Virus record (IMG/VR): IMGVR_UViG_3300001533_002344
Span: 1 to 23,129 of that record
Reading direction: 5' to 3' (one strand)
Origin: a virus
Length of the DNA stretch: 23,129 bases
The position numbers were made by a program, and so were the translations under genes. The notes beneath the pieces are model-generated. The model was not told the DNA's origin. It saw only the letters and a program-made list of their open reading frames with translations, and made no database searches. This document shows, in pieces, positions 3,479 to 20,967 of the stretch (position 1 is the stretch's first letter; every line of letters starts with the position of its first letter).

Positions 3479-4818
3479 CACTTCATCTTTTTAAATACAA
3501 GTAAACTTCCAACTCTTTTTACTAACTTCAATAAATTTGGATTCTGATTCACAAATTCATCTATTGCTTTTGTAACTCCCAGATAATCCTTGTTTTCATA
3601 ATCATGAAAGGCAACAAAGCCATTTACAGAAACAAGTTCAATCCAACGAATATCACTCTTAACACCATCATACGAATGGTCTGCATCTATGAAAAGGAAT
3701 TGAATTTTTCCTTTAAATAATCCTTCTGGGTAAACTCTTTCTTTATCTTTAAATACATTTTCAGAAAAATCCTGTACAGGTGTAATGTAATTTTCACAAT
3801 CAGCCTTTCTAATATTTTGCAAGAAATCAGAAAGTTTAGCACCATCCTTTCTATTTTCCCAATTACGTAATTTTTCCCAAGCGTCAATACAAAATAATCG
3901 ACCTGTACCAAGAACCTTTAATCCAGAAGCAATAGCACAAGATGACCTTCCCCGATAACTACCAACTTCCAAAGTAATTCCCCTAACCTTAGAAGCTACT
4001 TCATATAATAATTCAACTTGCTCATCAGAAATACCATATGTTTTGTTAATGTGTTTTATAATATTATGGTCAAATTTTTTAGTAATGTTACTATGTAGAT
4101 AATTATCCAAATACTCTCTCAACCACGGAGTGAAAGGAGCAGCTTGCCAAATTCTTGGTTGACCATGAAATACTACAATATCTTCAATACCATGTAATTT
4201 TATTCTTTTTACCCTTGCTTTTTCAGTTGGTGAGTATATTCTTTCATCAATTTTGTATGAAACAATTCCTTTGTTCAAATCCTGCCAATAAACATCTGGT
4301 GCATTAATCACAGAATTAATAAATGTTTGGTCTCCACCTACTCTATGTGTTTTCATATGAGTTTCTGGATTATTGGTAAAAGTTTCCCAAATCTTAGAAA
4401 CCCTTTCATCTTTAGCAGGAATCCACATCAAACCAGAAGTACCACCAATTCTTTCAGGGTGAAAGAACATACGTAACATCACAAAATTACTTTTATCTGT
4501 AACGGCATTAATCAAACGTGAAATAGGTTTTAGTATTACTGTGTCCAAATCAATATATAAAAATGGGCGCAAGTATTCTAAATTTGGTGAAAACATATTC
4601 ATTTTAGCCCACCAACCATTCCAATCATGTTCTAATGGCAACAATGTAACGTATGGTAAATTTACTGTTTGCCCTTGCTGCACAATGTTAGTTAAGCACC
4701 AAACTTTAACTTCAATATCAGCATTTTCAACTATTCGTTCAGATAACAAATTAACGTCTCTAATGCTATAATCACCACCGGTACGCAAAACTAATAATAT
4801 GTTATTTACTTTATTCAT
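3478..4818 (-). CDS. Bifunctional glycosyltransferase (GT8-like) / SAM methyltransferase
   Basis: 446 aa from the ATG at 4818, chosen because it overlaps the upstream stop as ATGA; an ATG 21 nt upstream (4839) is also open. Residues 5-240 form a GT-A nucleotide-sugar transferase with the DxD motif YIDLDTVILKP (D90, D92) and a GGDQTF motif near 161-166, as in GT8/GT32-like enzymes. Residues 260-446 form a class I methyltransferase (Methyltransf_24 type): SAM-binding loop EVGSYRGRS (284-292), acidic FCIDAW, and FIDADHSYDGV (376-386), then FHDYEN. The fusion suggests that a sugar is added and then O-methylated. Acceptor unknown. Confidence 0.85.
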   Translation of the reverse strand: MNKVNNILLVLRTGGDYSIRDVNLLSERIVENADIEVKVWCLTNIVQQGQTVNLPYVTLLPLEHDWNGWWAKMNMFSPNLEYLRPFLYIDLDTVILKPISRLINAVTDKSNFVMLRMFFHPERIGGTSGLMWIPAKDERVSKIWETFTNNPETHMKTHRVGGDQTFINSVINAPDVYWQDLNKGIVSYKIDERIYSPTEKARVKRIKLHGIEDIVVFHGQPRIWQAAPFTPWLREYLDNYLHSNITKKFDHNIIKHINKTYGISDEQVELLYEVASKVRGITLEVGSYRGRSSCAIASGLKVLGTGRLFCIDAWEKLRNWENRKDGAKLSDFLQNIRKADCENYITPVQDFSENVFKDKERVYPEGLFKGKIQFLFIDADHSYDGVKSDIRWIELVSVNGFVAFHDYENKDYLGVTKAIDEFVNQNPNLLKLVKRVGSLLVFKKMK

Positions 4819-5531
4819 TTCCAATTTTTTATTACCCATTTTTTACGTAAAATTGAAGGGTCTGCTCTTCCAGCGAATAACACTAATTTAGCTCCTTTTG
4901 GTAAAGATTTTCCTTCAAACCTCCTATATTCATAAACTCCATCTTCATTAGTAAATGTAGCTTCACTTTTATTTAAAGTATGTGCAATCCACGCTTGGTC
5001 TGTTCCTATAATTTCTCTTTCCTTTTTCCTCTTTTGTATTATTTTAGGACTTTTAACTGGATTAAATGAACTCCAAACCTGTGAACGTGAACCGGTATTC
5101 ATTAGAATTAATCCACCATTACACCATTGTTCAGAATATTCATTTATTAATCCGATGTATGAATTAATTACAAAATCTTCCTCTCTACCAAAAATATTAT
5201 CTAAAGAACCTATTACTACACAATCTAAATCAATAGAAGCTATCCTATCCCCAAACAAATATTTAATATTTGGATTGAATAACATTAACCGTGTATAACA
5301 GCCACCTAAATCTCTGTAAGTATTCCACAATGGAAAAGTAGGACAATTAACACCTTTCGGATTATCAGTTATACATATAAATTCATGTGGTATTGTTAAA
5401 TTCCTTTCAATAGAATTATATAAACGATTTACATGGTCTGCTGTATAATTATCAATAACATCTAATGAAGGCAATTTTGCACCCTTAGTGTATTCCCACT
5501 TAAAACATAATATTTTTAGTTTATCTGCCAT
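4815..5531 (-). CDS. Glycosyltransferase, GT8-like
   Basis: 238 aa. GT-A fold with DxD in ASIDLDCVVIGS (D101, D103), followed by the WCNGGLILMNTG segment and GTDQAW (D178), the order seen in GT8-type retaining transferases. It resembles the N-terminal half of the neighbouring fusion protein in layout but is not a close copy. It overlaps the upstream GT2 gene by 16 nt and the downstream fusion gene by 4 nt. No membrane segment. Donor and acceptor cannot be told from the sequence. Confidence 0.82.
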   Translation of the reverse strand: MADKLKILCFKWEYTKGAKLPSLDVIDNYTADHVNRLYNSIERNLTIPHEFICITDNPKGVNCPTFPLWNTYRDLGGCYTRLMLFNPNIKYLFGDRIASIDLDCVVIGSLDNIFGREEDFVINSYIGLINEYSEQWCNGGLILMNTGSRSQVWSSFNPVKSPKIIQKRKKEREIIGTDQAWIAHTLNKSEATFTNEDGVYEYRRFEGKSLPKGAKLVLFAGRADPSILRKKWVIKNWK

Positions 5532-6094
5532 CCCATTCTCATTTGTCTAATACCCCTGTGATGAATTACATACAGTCCGGGTATTTGATAAATTTTGTAA
5601 CCTTTTTCCAACAACCTACCACAATAATTCCAATCAACTTCTGCAACCCCTCTATTATTACTTTCAAATTTTAGTTCTTCCCAAATAGATTTTTTAACCA
5701 ACATAAAAAATCCTGTGGTCTTATAGGTTTTAATTTCTTCGAGTTTGTACTTGTACTTCATCCAAAGCATTTTGGCAACTCTGATATGCCTTTCAATCCT
5801 ATCTGAATGTTCTGGAATCGCTGCAACCTGTGGGTAAGTATGTCGCAAACTTTTATAAGTGTCTAAATAATTTGTAACACACGTAATTAAACCCACATCA
5901 TCAGGAACCATATTTATAACTTTAATAAGAATTTCATACCACAAAGGATTGCAACACACGAATACATCATGGTCAAGCAATAAAACCCATTCAGTATCAG
6001 CAGAAGCCATAGCCAAATTATATGCACCAGCTAAATCTTCATTTAAACCGTAAGGTATTTTAACTTCAATCCTATTGTATTTTAATTCATTCAT
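5516..6094 (-). CDS. Glycosyltransferase, GT2-like, lacking the first strand
   Basis: 192 aa. Contains the GT2 central segment NEDLAGAYNLAMASADTEW followed by LLLDHDVF (D41, D43, the DxD-type metal site) and the acceptor-side FFMLVKKSIWEEL and EVDWNYCGRLLEKGYKIYQIPG. The usual N-terminal strand (a VIIPTYNR-like segment) is missing: the protein starts where a GT2 domain is already about 40 residues in. The upstream ORF overlaps by 4 nt and is itself a GT2-like protein that has that strand (TIITPVSRP), so the two could form a split pair. Function is therefore less certain than the family. Confidence 0.75.
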   Translation of the reverse strand: MNELKYNRIEVKIPYGLNEDLAGAYNLAMASADTEWVLLLDHDVFVCCNPLWYEILIKVINMVPDDVGLITCVTNYLDTYKSLRHTYPQVAAIPEHSDRIERHIRVAKMLWMKYKYKLEEIKTYKTTGFFMLVKKSIWEELKFESNNRGVAEVDWNYCGRLLEKGYKIYQIPGLYVIHHRGIRQMRMGWQIN

Positions 6095-6618
6095 CTCAAA
6101 AAATTATAAATACTAAACGTTTTGTTAATGTAAAATGGATTCTTTGACTTAGCAAATAGTTCTTCTGCAAATACACCATCAGCAGTTCTACCAACTTCTC
6201 TTTTAAGTCTTGAATCCCCTATTAATTCTCTTGAAGCAAGATAACACCCTATGTCAATCTTTCCAACTTTAACTTCTCCACCAACTCTAAACTTACCATC
6301 TTTAAAAACTTGATTGAAATAAATAAAATCATGTTTAGAAGATAATAATAGTAATTTACAAAACTTATGATGAATTACTGTATCATCATCAAGAAAATAA
6401 ATATGACCATAATCAACTAATTCAATACCACGATTCCTCTTGTCATCTTCATTAGATGATTCTATTACTTCAACCTTTGAATTTTCAGGCAAATCATCTT
6501 TAGGTATAGTCGTATTAGAATCAAACAATAACAACCAATCACACTCCTTTGGAATTGTGGGTGCAATTGACTTTAAAAAGTGTGGCCTACTCACAGGCGT
6601 AATAATTGTTACTTTCAT
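6091..6618 (-). CDS. Glycosyltransferase, GT2-like
   Basis: 175 aa. Begins with MKVTIITPVSRPHFLKSI, the first nucleotide-binding strand of GT-A glycosyltransferases, and has IYFLDDDTVI with D77-D79 as the metal/donor site. NKRGIE-like text (KRNRGIELVDYGH) before it is the usual GT2 helix. It overlaps both neighbours by 4 nt (ATGA). Shorter than typical GT2 enzymes (about 220-300 aa), and its C-terminus lacks a recognisable acceptor domain. Confidence 0.75.
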   Translation of the reverse strand: MKVTIITPVSRPHFLKSIAPTIPKECDWLLLFDSNTTIPKDDLPENSKVEVIESSNEDDKRNRGIELVDYGHIYFLDDDTVIHHKFCKLLLLSSKHDFIYFNQVFKDGKFRVGGEVKVGKIDIGCYLASRELIGDSRLKREVGRTADGVFAEELFAKSKNPFYINKTFSIYNFLR

Positions 6619-7325
6619 ATTCCCGCTATTTTAAAAGCCGCTTTCAAACTAATTTTTGGCAACACATTTATAGCACTTTCAGGGCTGACATTGTATATAT
6701 CAATACCCAAGTACTTAGCATCGGTAGATATTGCCGGGAAACCCTCCAAATGCCGCTTGAAAGGCGTTTGTACAACAGGCTTACCGTTTACAGGTGTATA
6801 TAATCCATGCCAATGCTTATTCTCTCCAACTTTTTTCATATCAAAACCTAAAAGGAATATACGCTTAACACCTAAATGATGAGCTAAACTAATTGCAGCT
6901 GCACCACTATTTTGATTCCATGAAACAGTATATTTTTCATTAGAAATCCCCTCAGAATGTTTTTTATTCAGCGGAATGTATTTGACACCCAAATACTTTA
7001 AATCCCTTTTAGCAAAGTAAGATTTACATCCAACTTTTAAGTTAGGAAATGAAGCCAACCTGTATTCATTCTCTAAAAACCAACGCTTATCTCCAAAGAA
7101 TACAATGTCAATCCAATTACCAATTAAATAAGCAGCATTGATTCCAATTACATGCTTGTCATGAATAGGTTCCATATACTTAGAATATGTAGAAGGTAGT
7201 AACTTCCCAGACTGTACTTTCTTTATAAGTTCATCAGGGACACCAAATTGGTGAGGCATAGATGGACCACCACCTATAATCCAACAATCACCACCGTCCC
7301 ATATCTTAGGAACCTTCCATGCCAT
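6615..7325 (-). CDS. MptE/DUF115-like Rossmann protein (phage glycan-associated)
   Basis: 236 aa. N-terminus CWIIGGGPSMP (GGGPS at 18-22) is the nucleotide-binding loop of the DUF115 / 6-hydroxymethylpterin diphosphokinase MptE-like family; NSGAAAISLAHHLGVKRIFLLGFDM (139-163) is the second conserved segment. Such proteins are common in phages next to glycosyltransferases and resemble the sialyltransferase-like or motility-associated factor folds. A sugar-nucleotide transferase role is plausible but not shown. First gene of the cassette; its ATG overlaps the preceding stop as TAATG. Confidence 0.75.
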   Translation of the reverse strand: MAWKVPKIWDGGDCWIIGGGPSMPHQFGVPDELIKKVQSGKLLPSTYSKYMEPIHDKHVIGINAAYLIGNWIDIVFFGDKRWFLENEYRLASFPNLKVGCKSYFAKRDLKYLGVKYIPLNKKHSEGISNEKYTVSWNQNSGAAAISLAHHLGVKRIFLLGFDMKKVGENKHWHGLYTPVNGKPVVQTPFKRHLEGFPAISTDAKYLGIDIYNVSPESAINVLPKISLKAAFKIAGI

Positions 7326-16142: not shown

Positions 16143-16310
16143 TTTCAAATATGGTTAACATAAAATCCTTATGCCACTATGCTTTTATGAGTTTTTAAAA
16201 AAAATAAAAAATTTTTCATCTCACTTGCATATTCAAAAAATTTTTATATATGATAATTTTTTTAAATCAATATTACCATATATAAGTTTACAACCCCTTA
16301 TAAGGTAAAA
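16143..16310. other. AT-rich non-coding stretch upstream of the late promoter
   Basis: No convincing ORF. Very AT-rich, with two copies of AAAAAATTTTT (near 16209 and 16235) that would bend DNA, and a perfect 10-bp palindrome CCTTATAAGG at 16296-16305. Could hold activator or repressor sites for the late promoter. Confidence 0.4.
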
Positions 16311-16347
16311 TCGTTCTTTTGCCAGTGAAAAATACTTCAAAAATTTT

Positions 16348-16427
16348 GTGGGTCCCAACCCCACCTGTTCACCCTCTGGATGCGCCAAAAGTAGATTCGG
16401 ACCGGGAATCTCCAGTCGAGTCACCAA
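16348..16427. other. GC-rich foldable island in the divergent region
   Basis: An 80-nt island of about 55-60% GC in a very AT-rich surrounding. It can fold as two hairpins: GTGGG/CCCAC (16348-16352 with 16360-16364, 7-nt loop) and a longer one in which CTGG/CCAG (16376-16379 with 16412-16415) encloses AGATTC/GAATCT (16393-16398 with 16406-16411, loop GGACCGG). I could not fit it to a tRNA or a known ribozyme on either strand. Possibly a structured RNA or a protein-binding site. Confidence 0.4.
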
Positions 16428-16969: not shown

Positions 16970-17030
16970 TTGTGTGCCGGGAATGAATCCGGTCAAATTA
17001 ACATTATGTTGAACTTAAAAATTTTTAGAG

Positions 17031-17681: not shown

Positions 17682-17702
17682 TTTTTTAGTTTTGTTTTAG
17701 TT

Positions 17703-17716
17703 TTGTTTGCAAACAA
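17703..17716. promoter_or_regulatory. 14-bp perfect palindrome (operator-like) after the 17031 gene
   Basis: TTGTTTGCAAACAA is a perfect 14-bp palindrome. It is preceded by two tandem copies of TTTTAGTTTTG, each containing TAGTTTTG, an exact TAnnTTTG box (17687-17694 and 17698-17705). A repressor operator overlapping a promoter is one reading; the flanking T-runs are another reason to suspect a transcription end. Confidence 0.4.
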
Positions 17717-17801
17717 CGACTCCCCTGTTTTTTTGCACCCATTTTTGCAGTTTAACAAAATTTTTTTACTTCAAAGTAGTTTCACAAATTAACAGTACGA
17801 C

Positions 17802-17918
17802 ATGGAAACGCAAAACACCATACAACAAATTGACCACAATGGTTTTTTAAGCTGGTTATTTTTAAACATTGCAGTCAATAGCAATATTGACCATATTTTT
17901 TGTTGGTTTTATTGCTGA
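17802..17918 (+). CDS. Micro-ORF, 38 aa, HNG-motif peptide A (uncertain)
   Basis: Begins METQNTIQQIDHNGFLSWLF and ends in an aromatic stretch (HIFCWFYC). Uncertain as a gene. The reason to list it is the second micro-ORF at 18062, which shares NT...HNG and the DNA word ACCACAATGGTTT. Hydrophobic C-terminal half (about residues 15-38) could insert in a membrane. Confidence 0.25.
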   Translation: METQNTIQQIDHNGFLSWLFLNIAVNSNIDHIFCWFYC

Positions 17919-17949
17919 CTTTATTACTGCCCTGTTTTATTAGCTTTTA

Positions 17950-18020
17950 ACGGTTTATTTACTATTTGCAGGTTATTGCCTTATTTTTGGCAAAAGTTGT
18001 TTAAAACGCGAATAAACCGT
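17950..18020. repeat. 10-bp inverted repeat enclosing a smaller hairpin
   Basis: ACGGTTTATT (17950-17959) is the exact reverse complement of AATAAACCGT (18011-18020). The 51 nt between contain TTGCC/GGCAA (17976-17980 with 17989-17993). The element lies between the two micro-ORFs. As RNA it would be a two-tier stem; as DNA a spaced operator pair. Function unknown. Confidence 0.5.
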
Positions 18021-18061
18021 ATTTAAACAAAGGTTTTATTTTTACCTATATTTTTACTGTT

Positions 18062-18163
18062 ATGACACGAATCAACACATACAACCACAATGGTTTAAAC
18101 CCGATTTTTAGCCGATTTGCCGGACTTTATAGCAATTTTATTTACATTATTTTAGTTGCTTAA
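18062..18163 (+). CDS. Micro-ORF, 33 aa, HNG-motif peptide B (uncertain)
   Basis: MTRINTYNHNGLNPIFSRFA followed by a hydrophobic end (LYSNFIYIILVA). Shares NT-x-HNG with the micro-ORF at 17802 and has a similar amphipathic to hydrophobic layout. Could be a small membrane peptide or chance; the shared motif is short. Confidence 0.25.
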   Translation: MTRINTYNHNGLNPIFSRFAGLYSNFIYIILVA

Positions 18164-18186
18164 ATCGGGATTCAATTAGTTACCAG

Positions 18187-18292
18187 CGGAGCCCGACGGG
18201 AGCCGAGGTTGACCAGTCTGGCTCCGACAGGGGTATCGGCGGATTTGGGGGAAGGGGACCTTATAATAGGAAAATTTCTCCGTCCAAATCCG
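18187..18292 (+). ncRNA. GC-rich structured RNA element upstream of ribozyme 1 (family unknown)
   Basis: Two long-range stems can form: CGGAGCC/GGCTCCG (18187-18193 with 18220-18226) and CGGATTTGG/CCAAATCCG (18240-18248 with 18284-18292). A second GGAGCC (18199-18204) competes for the same partner, which would allow two alternative folds. The element is far richer in G and C than its surroundings and ends 12 nt before the first hammerhead. I do not recognise the family; strand is inferred from the downstream genes. Confidence 0.4.
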
Positions 18293-18304
18293 ATTCTAAA
18301 ATAA

Positions 18305-18354
18305 GACATGCTGATGAGACTTGATTAGTCGAAACTAATAATTTAGTCCATGTC
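18305..18354 (+). ncRNA. Hammerhead ribozyme 1 (type I)
   Basis: All conserved core positions are present. Stem I GACATG/CATGTC (18305-18310 with 18349-18354, 6 bp); core CTGATGA (18311-18317); stem II GACT/AGTC (18318-18321 with 18327-18330) with the preferred G10.1-C11.1 pair and a 5-nt loop TGATT; GAA (18331-18333); stem III ACTAA/TTAGT (18334-18338 with 18343-18347) with the required A15.1-U16.1 pair and loop TAAT; C17 at 18348. Self-cleavage is predicted between 18348 and 18349, 27 nt before the ATG at 18376. Stem I is short and has no obvious internal loop for loop-loop contact, so speed in the cell is uncertain. Confidence 0.85.
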
Positions 18355-18375
18355 AAACTTAAAAAATTAATTGTT
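18349..18375 (+). promoter_or_regulatory. 27-nt leader left by ribozyme 1
   Basis: The RNA between the predicted cut and the ATG at 18376. It reads ATGTCAAACTTAAAAA then AATTAATTGTT, nearly the same as the 27 nt after ribozyme 2. No Shine-Dalgarno; the AT-rich leader resembles Bacteroidota translation leaders. Confidence 0.7.
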
Positions 18376-18528
18376 ATGAAAAAGAAAAACATTAGATGTC
18401 CAAAATGCAATAAAAGACAAGACGCTGAAGTTTTTTATTGCGGTGGTCGAATAGTTAATGTTCTTATGACGGAATGTGGTCATAGCTTTGACTTTCAACC
18501 AGAAAAAGTATTAACCACTAAAAATTAA
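18376..18528 (+). CDS. Small zinc-ribbon-like protein, 50 aa
   Basis: Basic N-terminus, then C8-x2-C11 (CPKC), C22, C34 and H36 (ECGHSF), which could bind one zinc ion. Not assigned to a family. First gene after ribozyme 1; the next gene starts 5 nt after its stop. Confidence 0.65.
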   Translation: MKKKNIRCPKCNKRQDAEVFYCGGRIVNVLMTECGHSFDFQPEKVLTTKN

Positions 18529-18533
18529 TTACC

Positions 18534-19103
18534 ATGAAAAAATTATCAATAAACCAATTAAGAAAACACTTTGACGGGATGAGTCATTGGGAAGTACAGA
18601 AACACATTCCTAATGACATTTATATGTCAAGGCAAGGGAATAAAAACATTCTCAGTAAGCTGGTGATTGCTTGCAATAAAGTACCGAGAGCCGACAGGAC
18701 GTTTGAAAACAAAACAGATGAAATTCCGTATGCTGCTAAGATGGCAAAAAATATGCTGGAAGTGGCGTATGAAATACGGAATTTGGTTGATAAAGTAGAT
18801 GCAAGCGAAGCAGAAACGGCAATTGAAATATTACAGGTATGTAATATAATGTTCATACGTATGTTCGGTGACCAATTAACCAAACTAATCTTTGAAGGTA
18901 AAAACCTTGAAGACTGGTTTAAATCAATTTACTGTGATGAACAATTGGTTGAAAAAGCAAGGTTTTATCATAATATTGAAACTCTGCATTTGATGGGCTG
19001 GTTGCCGTATGAAATCAGAATGAGGGAAGAGGCAAAAAATGCAGAACATGCAGAACGCAAGAGGATGAGAGAAATATACATTGAAGAAAAAAAGGCATAC
19101 TGA
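18534..19103 (+). CDS. Helical early protein of unknown function, 189 aa
   Basis: Soluble and mostly helical. N-terminus MKKLSINQLRKHFDGMSHWEV, central AETAIEILQVCNIMFIRMFGDQL, and a charged C-terminal helix (EEAKNAEHAERKRMREIYIEEKK). No recognised motif. Its stop codon TGA (19101-19103) lies inside the conserved core of hammerhead ribozyme 2, so ribosomes finishing this gene would cover the ribozyme and could delay folding or cleavage. Confidence 0.75.
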   Translation: MKKLSINQLRKHFDGMSHWEVQKHIPNDIYMSRQGNKNILSKLVIACNKVPRADRTFENKTDEIPYAAKMAKNMLEVAYEIRNLVDKVDASEAETAIEILQVCNIMFIRMFGDQLTKLIFEGKNLEDWFKSIYCDEQLVEKARFYHNIETLHLMGWLPYEIRMREEAKNAEHAERKRMREIYIEEKKAY

Positions 19104-19150
19104 TGAAGGTTTAATACCAGAAAACAGGGTTAAAAACCCTGTTCTATGTC
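19094..19150 (+). ncRNA. Hammerhead ribozyme 2 (type I)
   Basis: Stem I GGCATA/TATGTC (19094-19099 with 19145-19150, 6 bp with one G-U); core CTGATGA (19100-19106); stem II GGT/ACC (19108-19110 with 19116-19118) with loop TTAAT; GAA (19120-19122); stem III AACAGGG/CCCTGTT (19123-19129 with 19137-19143, 7 bp, A15.1-U16.1 present); C17 at 19144. Predicted cut between 19144 and 19145, 27 nt before the ATG at 19172. Weak point: positions 10.1 and 11.1 are A-A instead of G-C, which should slow the reaction. The core overlaps the stop codon of the upstream gene. Confidence 0.72.
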
Positions 19151-19171
19151 AAACTTAAAAATTAATTTGTT
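19145..19171 (+). promoter_or_regulatory. 27-nt leader left by ribozyme 2
   Basis: Same length and nearly the same sequence as the leader after ribozyme 1: ATGTCAAACTTAAAAA, then TTAATTTGTT, ending at the ATG at 19172. Confidence 0.7.
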
Positions 19172-19408
19172 ATGAAAAATTTAAGTGACTCAAGAAAAAA
19201 AGAACTGTTCCAAATACTAATGGAAGAGTACGGCTACGACGATGAAATGTCGTTCCTTGAAACAGAATGTATGGGTGGTTGTGTGCCGGGAATATGTACC
19301 AACTGCGAATGTACGTACGATTATGAACCAGACCAGGATAGGGGCTGGTGTGATGAATGTGAGAGTAATACGGTTGTATCTGCGCTCATTTTGAGTGGTA
19401 TTATTTAA
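19172..19408 (+). CDS. Small zinc-ribbon phage protein, 78 aa
   Basis: C42-x2-C45 (ICTNC) and C60-x2-C63 (GWCDEC) form a zinc-ribbon pair; C33, C37 and C47 are further cysteines. The C-terminus SNTVVSALILSGII with the preceding EPDQDRGWCDEC is a pattern I recall from many small hypothetical phage proteins. Function unknown; zinc ribbons of this size often bind nucleic acid or a partner protein. Confidence 0.75.
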   Translation: MKNLSDSRKKELFQILMEEYGYDDEMSFLETECMGGCVPGICTNCECTYDYEPDQDRGWCDECESNTVVSALILSGII

Positions 19409-20827: not shown

Positions 20828-20907
20828 GGCATAGCCCATGCGGATGAGAGCTTGCATAGGGGTCTGGAACTATAAAAAGGTTGGTGGTTCGAATCCATCC
20901 AATGCCA
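20828..20907 (+). tRNA. tRNA-like element, degenerate or atypical
   Basis: The T arm is perfect: GGTGG-TTCGAAT-CCATC (20883-20899) with the box B word GGTTCGAATCC. The acceptor stem GGCATAG/CAATGCC (20828-20834 with 20900-20906) pairs with one A-A mismatch, and the discriminator is A (20907); CCA is not encoded. The D region (TAGCCC...GG...GAGC) resembles an A box but is shifted. I could not find a 5-bp stem with a 7-nt anticodon loop, so no amino acid is assigned. Could be a decayed tRNA, an attachment-site remnant or an RNase P/Z processing signal. A small ACTCTT/AAGAGT hairpin (20912-20926) follows. Confidence 0.4.
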
Positions 20908-20967
20908 CAATACTCTTCTAAAGAGTTAAGTGTTAATTAATAATTGTTAAATTTAAAGAAAAGAACA

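Follow-up and report, generated by a model that had tools for sequence, protein, structure and literature searches.

The window considered here, i.e., the whole stretch of DNA analysed, is an IMG/VR viral record of 23,129 bases. The best named matches of its TerL are those of Cellulophaga and Croceibacter phages (35-37% identity), so that a Bacteroidota host is likely. Two hammerhead elements (HHR1 and HHR2) precede small genes, and the features referred to below are:

17007..17030, plus strand: leader-like TGTTGAACTTAAAAA (2 mismatches), 24 nt before ATG 17031, without ribozyme
18305..18354, plus strand: HHR1, type I hammerhead (descriptor scan; held-out covariance model 68.1 bits, E 9.5e-16)
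18349..18375, plus strand: predicted leader left by HHR1, CATGTCAAACTTAAAAAATTAATTGTT, 27 nt (from sequence)
18376..18528, plus strand: small Cys-containing ORF after HHR1, 50 aa, MKKKNIRCPKCNKRQ... (from sequence)
18534..19103, plus strand: 189-aa ORF between HHR1 and HHR2 (ORF list)
19094..19150, plus strand: HHR2, type I hammerhead (descriptor scan; held-out covariance model 58.9 bits, E 2.5e-13)
19145..19171, plus strand: predicted leader left by HHR2, TATGTCAAACTTAAAAATTAATTTGTT, 27 nt (from sequence)
19172..19408, plus strand: small Cys-rich ORF after HHR2, 78 aa (ORF list)
20828-20908: tRNA-like stretch with complementary ends GGCAT/ATGCC and T-arm-like GGTTCGAATCCATCC

Both hammerheads possess CTGATGA, GAAA and U16.1-C17, with the strands in type I order and stem I open. 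HHR1, which is preceded by a conserved A at 18304, consists of stem I (GACATG/CATGTC, 18305-18310/18349-18354), the core CTGATGA (18311-18317), stem II with its loop (GACT-TGATT-AGTC), GAA (18331-18333) and stem III (A18334-T18347); the predicted cut falls between C18348 and C18349. In HHR2, stem I is formed by GGCATA/TATGTC (19094-19099/19145-19150), the core lies at 19100-19106 and GAA at 19120-19122, stem II is GGT-TTAAT-ACC, stem III counts 9 bp, and the cut is predicted between C19144 and T19145. The innermost position of stem II (10.1/11.1) is G-C in most hammerheads and also in HHR1, but A.A in HHR2; it is unpaired in 3 rows of the 31-sequence alignment described below, and the predicted cleavage by HHR2 could be slowed by it.

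A covariance model trained on 29 relatives, from which the window sequences were left out, retrieved exactly HHR1 and HHR2 from the window, the third-best score being 10.8 bits, i.e., a gap of ca. 48 bits. Plain minimum free energy (MFE) folding returned alternative folds for HHR1 and not the hammerhead; for this reason model-based evidence is preferred. With descriptor scan and held-out model in agreement on the two ribozymes placed here by the first-pass annotation, 18305-18354 and 19094-19150 are, at the level of sequence and modelled structure, confirmed as type I hammerhead ribozymes. Their cores are spaced 789 nt apart, so that they form a tandem pair flanking genes in phage DNA. For both copies self-cleavage is predicted 3' of H17, which would yield a 2',3'-cyclic phosphate and a 5'-OH.

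The predicted cuts lie exactly 27 nt before ATG 18376 and ATG 19172, as had been noticed before, the first 6 nt of the HHR1 leader being the 3' strand of stem I. The leaders indeed share sequence, since the 15-mer TGTCAAACTTAAAAA occurs exactly in both and nowhere else in the window; at the leader-like 17007..17030 the covariance model gave no match. For the 50-aa ORF after HHR1 only weak, sub-cutoff Pfam matches to zinc ribbons were obtained, and for the 78-aa ORF after HHR2 no Pfam match. The stop codon of the 189-aa ORF (TGA, 19101-19103) is located inside the core CTGATGA of HHR2. Upstream of HHR1, ca. 620 nt (17684-18304) are free of ORFs and there is no closely spaced gene; a cut at this site would, therefore, trim a long 5' leader and not part adjacent genes. 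Within this ORF-free stretch the segment 18180-18300 is G-rich, with a predicted fold of -46.3 kcal/mol (z -2.05) and a 9-bp stem CGGATTTGG/CCAAATCCG.

The tRNA-like stretch at 20828 had been proposed as a possible third processing point, a proposal that found no support. Its visible features are limited to the acceptor-like ends and the T-arm-like string, its MFE z-score is 0.03, ARAGORN called 0 genes and Rfam, including RF00005, gave no match at E<=10; the element is, therefore, not supported as a tRNA. A further tRNA-like stretch, sharing TGGAACT with that of the window, is present in L013 (~4690-4640, minus strand), and a comparable T-arm-like string stands before a leader in G010 (before ORF 26186).

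IMG/VR was scanned with the core-only pattern CTGANGAGNNNTNAWTNNNCGAAAC, which describes the core and loop II and leaves stem I, stem III, leader and ATG free. At least 120 stretches matched, giving at least 139 non-redundant matches in phage contigs, and a complete type I hammerhead fold is found for 134 of the 139 matches listed. Among these 134, stem I is exactly 6 bp long in 133 and flanked by a 5' A in 133 and a 3' A in 134, stem I length and the 5' A being fixed by no element of the pattern. An ORF starts 16-42 nt past the cut in 106 of 129 matches listed for which enough flanking sequence was available (82%), compared to 18% for random points on the same contigs, and the cut-to-start distance among the matches listed is mostly 18-42 nt, with a median of 26 nt; a fixed distance of 27 nt does not, therefore, apply generally. 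On the other side of the ribozyme, an ORF of 40 codons or more stops within 30 nt of the core in 111 of 129 matches listed. The preferred sites among them are -10 to -8, -5 to -3, +1 (the core UGA) and +11 (loop II), which place the stop shortly ahead of stem I, within it, at the core or in loop II.

The core-only matches also bear on the nature of the leader. AAAC follows stem I in just 16 of the 134 folding matches listed, and the leader is, therefore, not part of the ribozyme, nor is it the fixed partner that the first-pass annotation had envisaged. CAAAC after stem I was likewise rejected as a part of the ribozyme, the first A alone being constant in the core-only matches listed. Judging from these comparisons, the CAAACTTAAAAA leader and the spacing of precisely 27 nt represent local or lineage traits. 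A Shine-Dalgarno (SD)-like motif precedes the ATG in 51 of 119 matches listed and an A is present at -3 in 78%, which indicates that the arrangement is not limited to hosts without SD. Two or more hammerheads occur in 17 of the 110 contigs and form trains of 2-4 copies with a spacing of 289-1155 nt (both among the matches listed).

A second, leader-based pattern, for which stems II and III were not required, recovered 66 viral stretches, most of which fold; the 23 bacterial-genome stretches matched in the scan of a genome collection do not fold in any case (0 of 23) and were taken as the chance background. In the 75 non-redundant leader-based examples, the A before stem I is invariably present (75/75), stem I measures 6 bp in 71, and loop II shows a restricted sequence that mostly conforms to UNAWU. 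In 67 of the 75, the first start codon opening an ORF of 25 codons or more follows the cut after 21-33 nt (mode 25); since the leader formed part of the pattern, this set is biased in its favour. The 72 downstream proteins of this set fall into 56 clusters and the 119 of the core-only set into 102 (the latter among the matches listed), and the ribozyme is, therefore, not tied to one gene. Phage contigs contain 1-4 copies of the cassette, which precedes unrelated small genes with a short and fairly regular spacing to the start codon, the upstream ORF reaching its stop at the ribozyme or within it. In L070 three genes in a row are each preceded by a ribozyme. The search of relatives for ribozyme, leader and nearby ATG was thus positive, the reusable ribozyme-before-gene unit suggested earlier is supported, and the reading of a segmented operon is well motivated. 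In L297 (4218-4300, plus strand), a complete hammerhead is directly followed by a second hammerhead core, with no gene between them, and L026 and L053 hold candidate type III hammerheads followed by TTGGAGGA leaders.

The sequences of the stems differ while pairing is kept, as had been remarked for the two window copies. In the alignment of 31 sequences, changes on both sides occur at 13 of 15 pairs and 99.4% of cells are paired, which falls to 23-42% when the partner is slid by 1-3 columns; this covariation figure is partly circular because the descriptor used for collecting requires pairing. The cassette is also present in Elemovirus, a group of cultured Flavobacterium phages, in which stem II is GACT/AGTC in some isolates and GGTT/AACC in others, a compensatory change, the core differing at N7 alone. 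In ElemoD stem II is intermediate with two mismatches, which shows that loss was tolerated at least once. In the Elemovirus genome MT497072.1 (G011), which has the type I cassette, a type III hammerhead descriptor match was also found at ~18152 on the minus strand. At 16289-16396 of this genome and at homologous Elemovirus sites, phanotate calls a short ORF on the opposite strand that overlaps the ribozyme and is probably spurious.

The distribution of the cassette is patchy. In L013, a TerL relative of the window phage (56% identity), the same divergent strand bears two hammerheads ahead of the packaging genes, followed by ATGs after 31 and 18 nt. At ~4600-7100 (minus strand), L013 furthermore carries at least 4 copies of a repeated hairpin TTTTACCACGTAATCGAAAGGCTACGTGGTTTTGCCAGTAAAA before several genes, with TTTTAC/GTAAAA as its outer and CACGTA/TACGTG as its inner stem. 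No hammerheads were found in the closest TerL relatives searched (G006, G007, G319 and G320), records that may be fragments, and most gene junctions in these phages are without a ribozyme. A model search of 297 Bacteroidota genomes yielded none, which says little about absence since the model scored 18 out of several hundred candidates in each genome, and neither a distant DNA search with L107 nor a near search of isolate phages with the window gave a match. Taken as predicted from their sequences, these ribozymes are an uncatalogued hammerhead branch located between small genes in at least 100 phage sequences.

In a marine clade, the leader TCAAACTTCAA...ATG also occurs after long hairpins or after nothing at all. 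Leaders without ribozymes, which according to the first-pass annotation would speak against its cassette, are thus found at 17007 in the window, in L014 and before many marine-clade genes. This objection is thereby borne out in part: the tight coupling of leader and ribozyme is not supported, whereas the ribozyme-before-gene unit stands. Genes of the family MASTQSLYHL are preceded by a hammerhead in G013, G016 and L108 and by a long hairpin in G010, and those of the family MANFFKQPV by a hammerhead in G016 and by hairpins in G014 and L071, with the TCAAAC leader present in each case. Long hairpins were located in L147/L148 (G010), L115, L186 (G014), L158/L159 (G016), L071, L091, L101 and L108. 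They measure ca. 56-68 nt with 20-28 bp, lie 21-47 nt ahead of ATGs in company with the TCAAAC leader, have an apical loop TGAACGTAGTGAA or TGAGTTCTTACGAA (UGA/GAA module) and often a second, internal TGA/GAA loop, and their stems covary. A tandem-GA hairpin descriptor demanding exact pairing beside TGA/GAA missed these hairpins and was replaced by folding of the sequence before leader-bearing ORFs. Those of L071 match no Rfam family above threshold. The long hairpins are possibly RNase III sites or a new RNA class, and the simplest reading would be that hammerheads and long hairpins alike are processing sites in front of a translation leader.

The reading we favour, with a probability of roughly 0.7, is that the hammerheads of the window are intercistronic self-processing sites leaving short 5'-OH leaders. 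The identity of the ribozymes, their covariation, their position between stop and start, their gene-agnostic reuse and their exchange for hairpins at orthologous genes can be read from the sequences. RNA polymerase would traverse a series of small phage genes, most of them unconserved, and each ribozyme would fold on emerging and cut the transcript, leaving ca. 25 nt to the following start codon. A structured 3' end with a 2',3'-cyclic phosphate would remain on the upstream mRNA. The downstream gene would gain a short, A-rich and unstructured 5'-OH leader, detached from the sequence upstream of it. This would then be the ordinary translation leader of the phage and the ribozyme the cutter in front of it, a role that in relatives a long hairpin appears to take over. 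We infer that cleavage proceeds in vivo and cotranscriptionally, the benefit presumably being the independent translation or the stability of single-gene mRNAs. In Flavobacterium, mRNAs have no SD, their leaders measure 33 nt on average, and local structure and A-3 modulate initiation (PMC6847099); the freeing of a short A-rich leader would, therefore, make sense in such a host. It is also conceivable, though rather unlikely, that hammerheads, tandem-G.A hairpins and perhaps tRNA-like elements form an interchangeable RNA punctuation, swapped before the same leader and genes, with cutting gated in addition by ribosomes at the core UGA.

Such gating leads to the idea of a regulated switch, in which a protein, Mg2+ or translating ribosomes would control folding and in which, for example, ribosomes at the core UGA would block it and thereby link cleavage to upstream translation. 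The 189-aa ORF of the window, ending within the HHR2 core, fits this idea, and among the matches listed the upstream ORF stops at the core UGA in 24 of 129, in loop II in 10 and in stem I in 28. However, the core UGA is invariant and ORFs entering in that frame must, therefore, stop there. The stop also often lies upstream of the ribozyme (at its edge in 32 of the 129 matches listed, further upstream in 13, none within 30 nt in 18), and a conserved extra domain or ligand pocket was not seen, so that we regard a switch as unlikely. The cut could alternatively serve the upstream RNA or its decay, with ribozyme hairpins and cyclic phosphate providing a protected 3' end, or with the downstream gene being lowered by 5'-end-dependent decay, the leader geometry then being a by-product of compact genomes. 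The ribozyme would, according to the sequence, remain on the upstream fragment, and 5'-OH ends are known to alter the access of 5'-sensing nucleases. This explanation seems, nevertheless, distinctly unlikely, since the distance to the ATG is too regular (82% within 16-42 nt, against 18% for random points, among the matches listed) and HHR1 and others have no close upstream ORF, 18 of the 129 matches listed being without a stop within 30 nt.

Gene-agnostic occurrence, patchy distribution, repeated near-identical leaders that could recombine and the tandem ribozyme copies of L297 would all suit a mobile or selfish cassette, spread possibly via circular RNA or leader recombination and kept because it is harmless. 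Against this stand the covariation of the stems and the conservation of the core over wide divergence and the compensatory change in Elemovirus, which together argue for purifying selection on cleavage competence. The precise stop-to-start placement is, furthermore, unexpected for a neutral insert, and the flanking genes are without a recognised mobility function; we consider a selfish origin very improbable. That the elements merely resemble hammerheads by chance and lack catalysis is hardly credible: loose matches to the hammerhead motif do occur in addition to the two ribozymes (7 observed in the window, with 1.61 expected by chance), but as to structure the ca. 48-bit gap of the held-out model and the statistics of the core-only family refute it.

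The hammerheads described here form a uniform and abundant subclass with a precise genetic address, i.e., stop codon, ribozyme, 16-42 nt and start codon. Natural experiments are available in the orthologous genes carrying either a ribozyme or a hairpin and in strains with intact or mismatched stem II. With the cultured pair of Flavobacterium sp. BAL314 and Elemovirus, the role of the ribozyme can be tested by point mutation. In the Rfam scan of the window and related records, nothing exceeded the gathering score of any hammerhead model: for RF03152 (RAGATH-1-hammerhead) HHR1 reached 29.6 bits against a gathering score of 56.3, and for RF00163 (Hammerhead_1) the best of 21 phage records was 23.8 bits against 34. 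The core and three stems are thus shared with RF00163 and RF03152, but the matches are weak, and annotation pipelines at current Rfam thresholds miss the phage subclass.

In T7, the early polycistronic mRNA is cut at RNase III hairpins between genes to give gene-sized mRNAs. The cuts are intercistronic there too, and in the marine clade long hairpins occupy the sites where relatives have hammerheads; in T7, however, a host protein cuts, whereas in the phage hammerheads the RNA itself is predicted to do so. HDV-like theta ribozymes of gut phages have been described as self-cleaving RNA-processing devices in phages of Bacteroidota and Bacillota, associated with tRNA 3' trailers (PMC10879173). 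They are likewise small self-cleaving RNA processors in phages, but with an HDV-like fold and at tRNA 3' trailers, and a search through the text of that paper returned neither hammerheads nor start codons nor operons. De la Pena and colleagues noted in a review that hammerheads flank ORFs for small non-conserved proteins, their role in prokaryotes being an open question (PMC6155905). In the open-access literature searched, the cassette was not found described, and this holds for the uniform subclass, the strict stop/start geometry, the hairpin exchange and the occurrence in cultured Elemovirus.

The arrangement, which the first-pass annotation regarded as no textbook one, is not unprecedented. 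Perreault et al. (2011) reported clustered hammerheads flanking genes in prophages and proposed mRNA processing to operon or gene length (PMC3088659), so that the idea itself is not new. Cleavage was demonstrated in vitro for three tandem sets associated with phages and in E. coli for one set, and the loci include the A. tumefaciens ardA locus, C. scindens and A. caulinodans (PMC3088659). HHphage of the haloviruses HF1/HF2 is a hammerhead of an early polycistronic region, 13 nt ahead of a start codon and with a transcript end linked to the cleavage site (PMC3088659); it differs from the subclass of the window in being a core variant of archaeal viruses described at one helicase gene. The clusters of Perreault et al. 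likewise consist of tandem hammerheads, which in DNA of phage origin flank short blocks or single genes. They mix types I-III, with pseudoknots being common, whereas the phage subclass described here is uniformly type I and distinguished by an open 6-bp stem I between conserved A's, a UNAWU loop II, a location at stop/start junctions, a short and set spacing to the following ATG and its occurrence in phage contigs as well as isolates.
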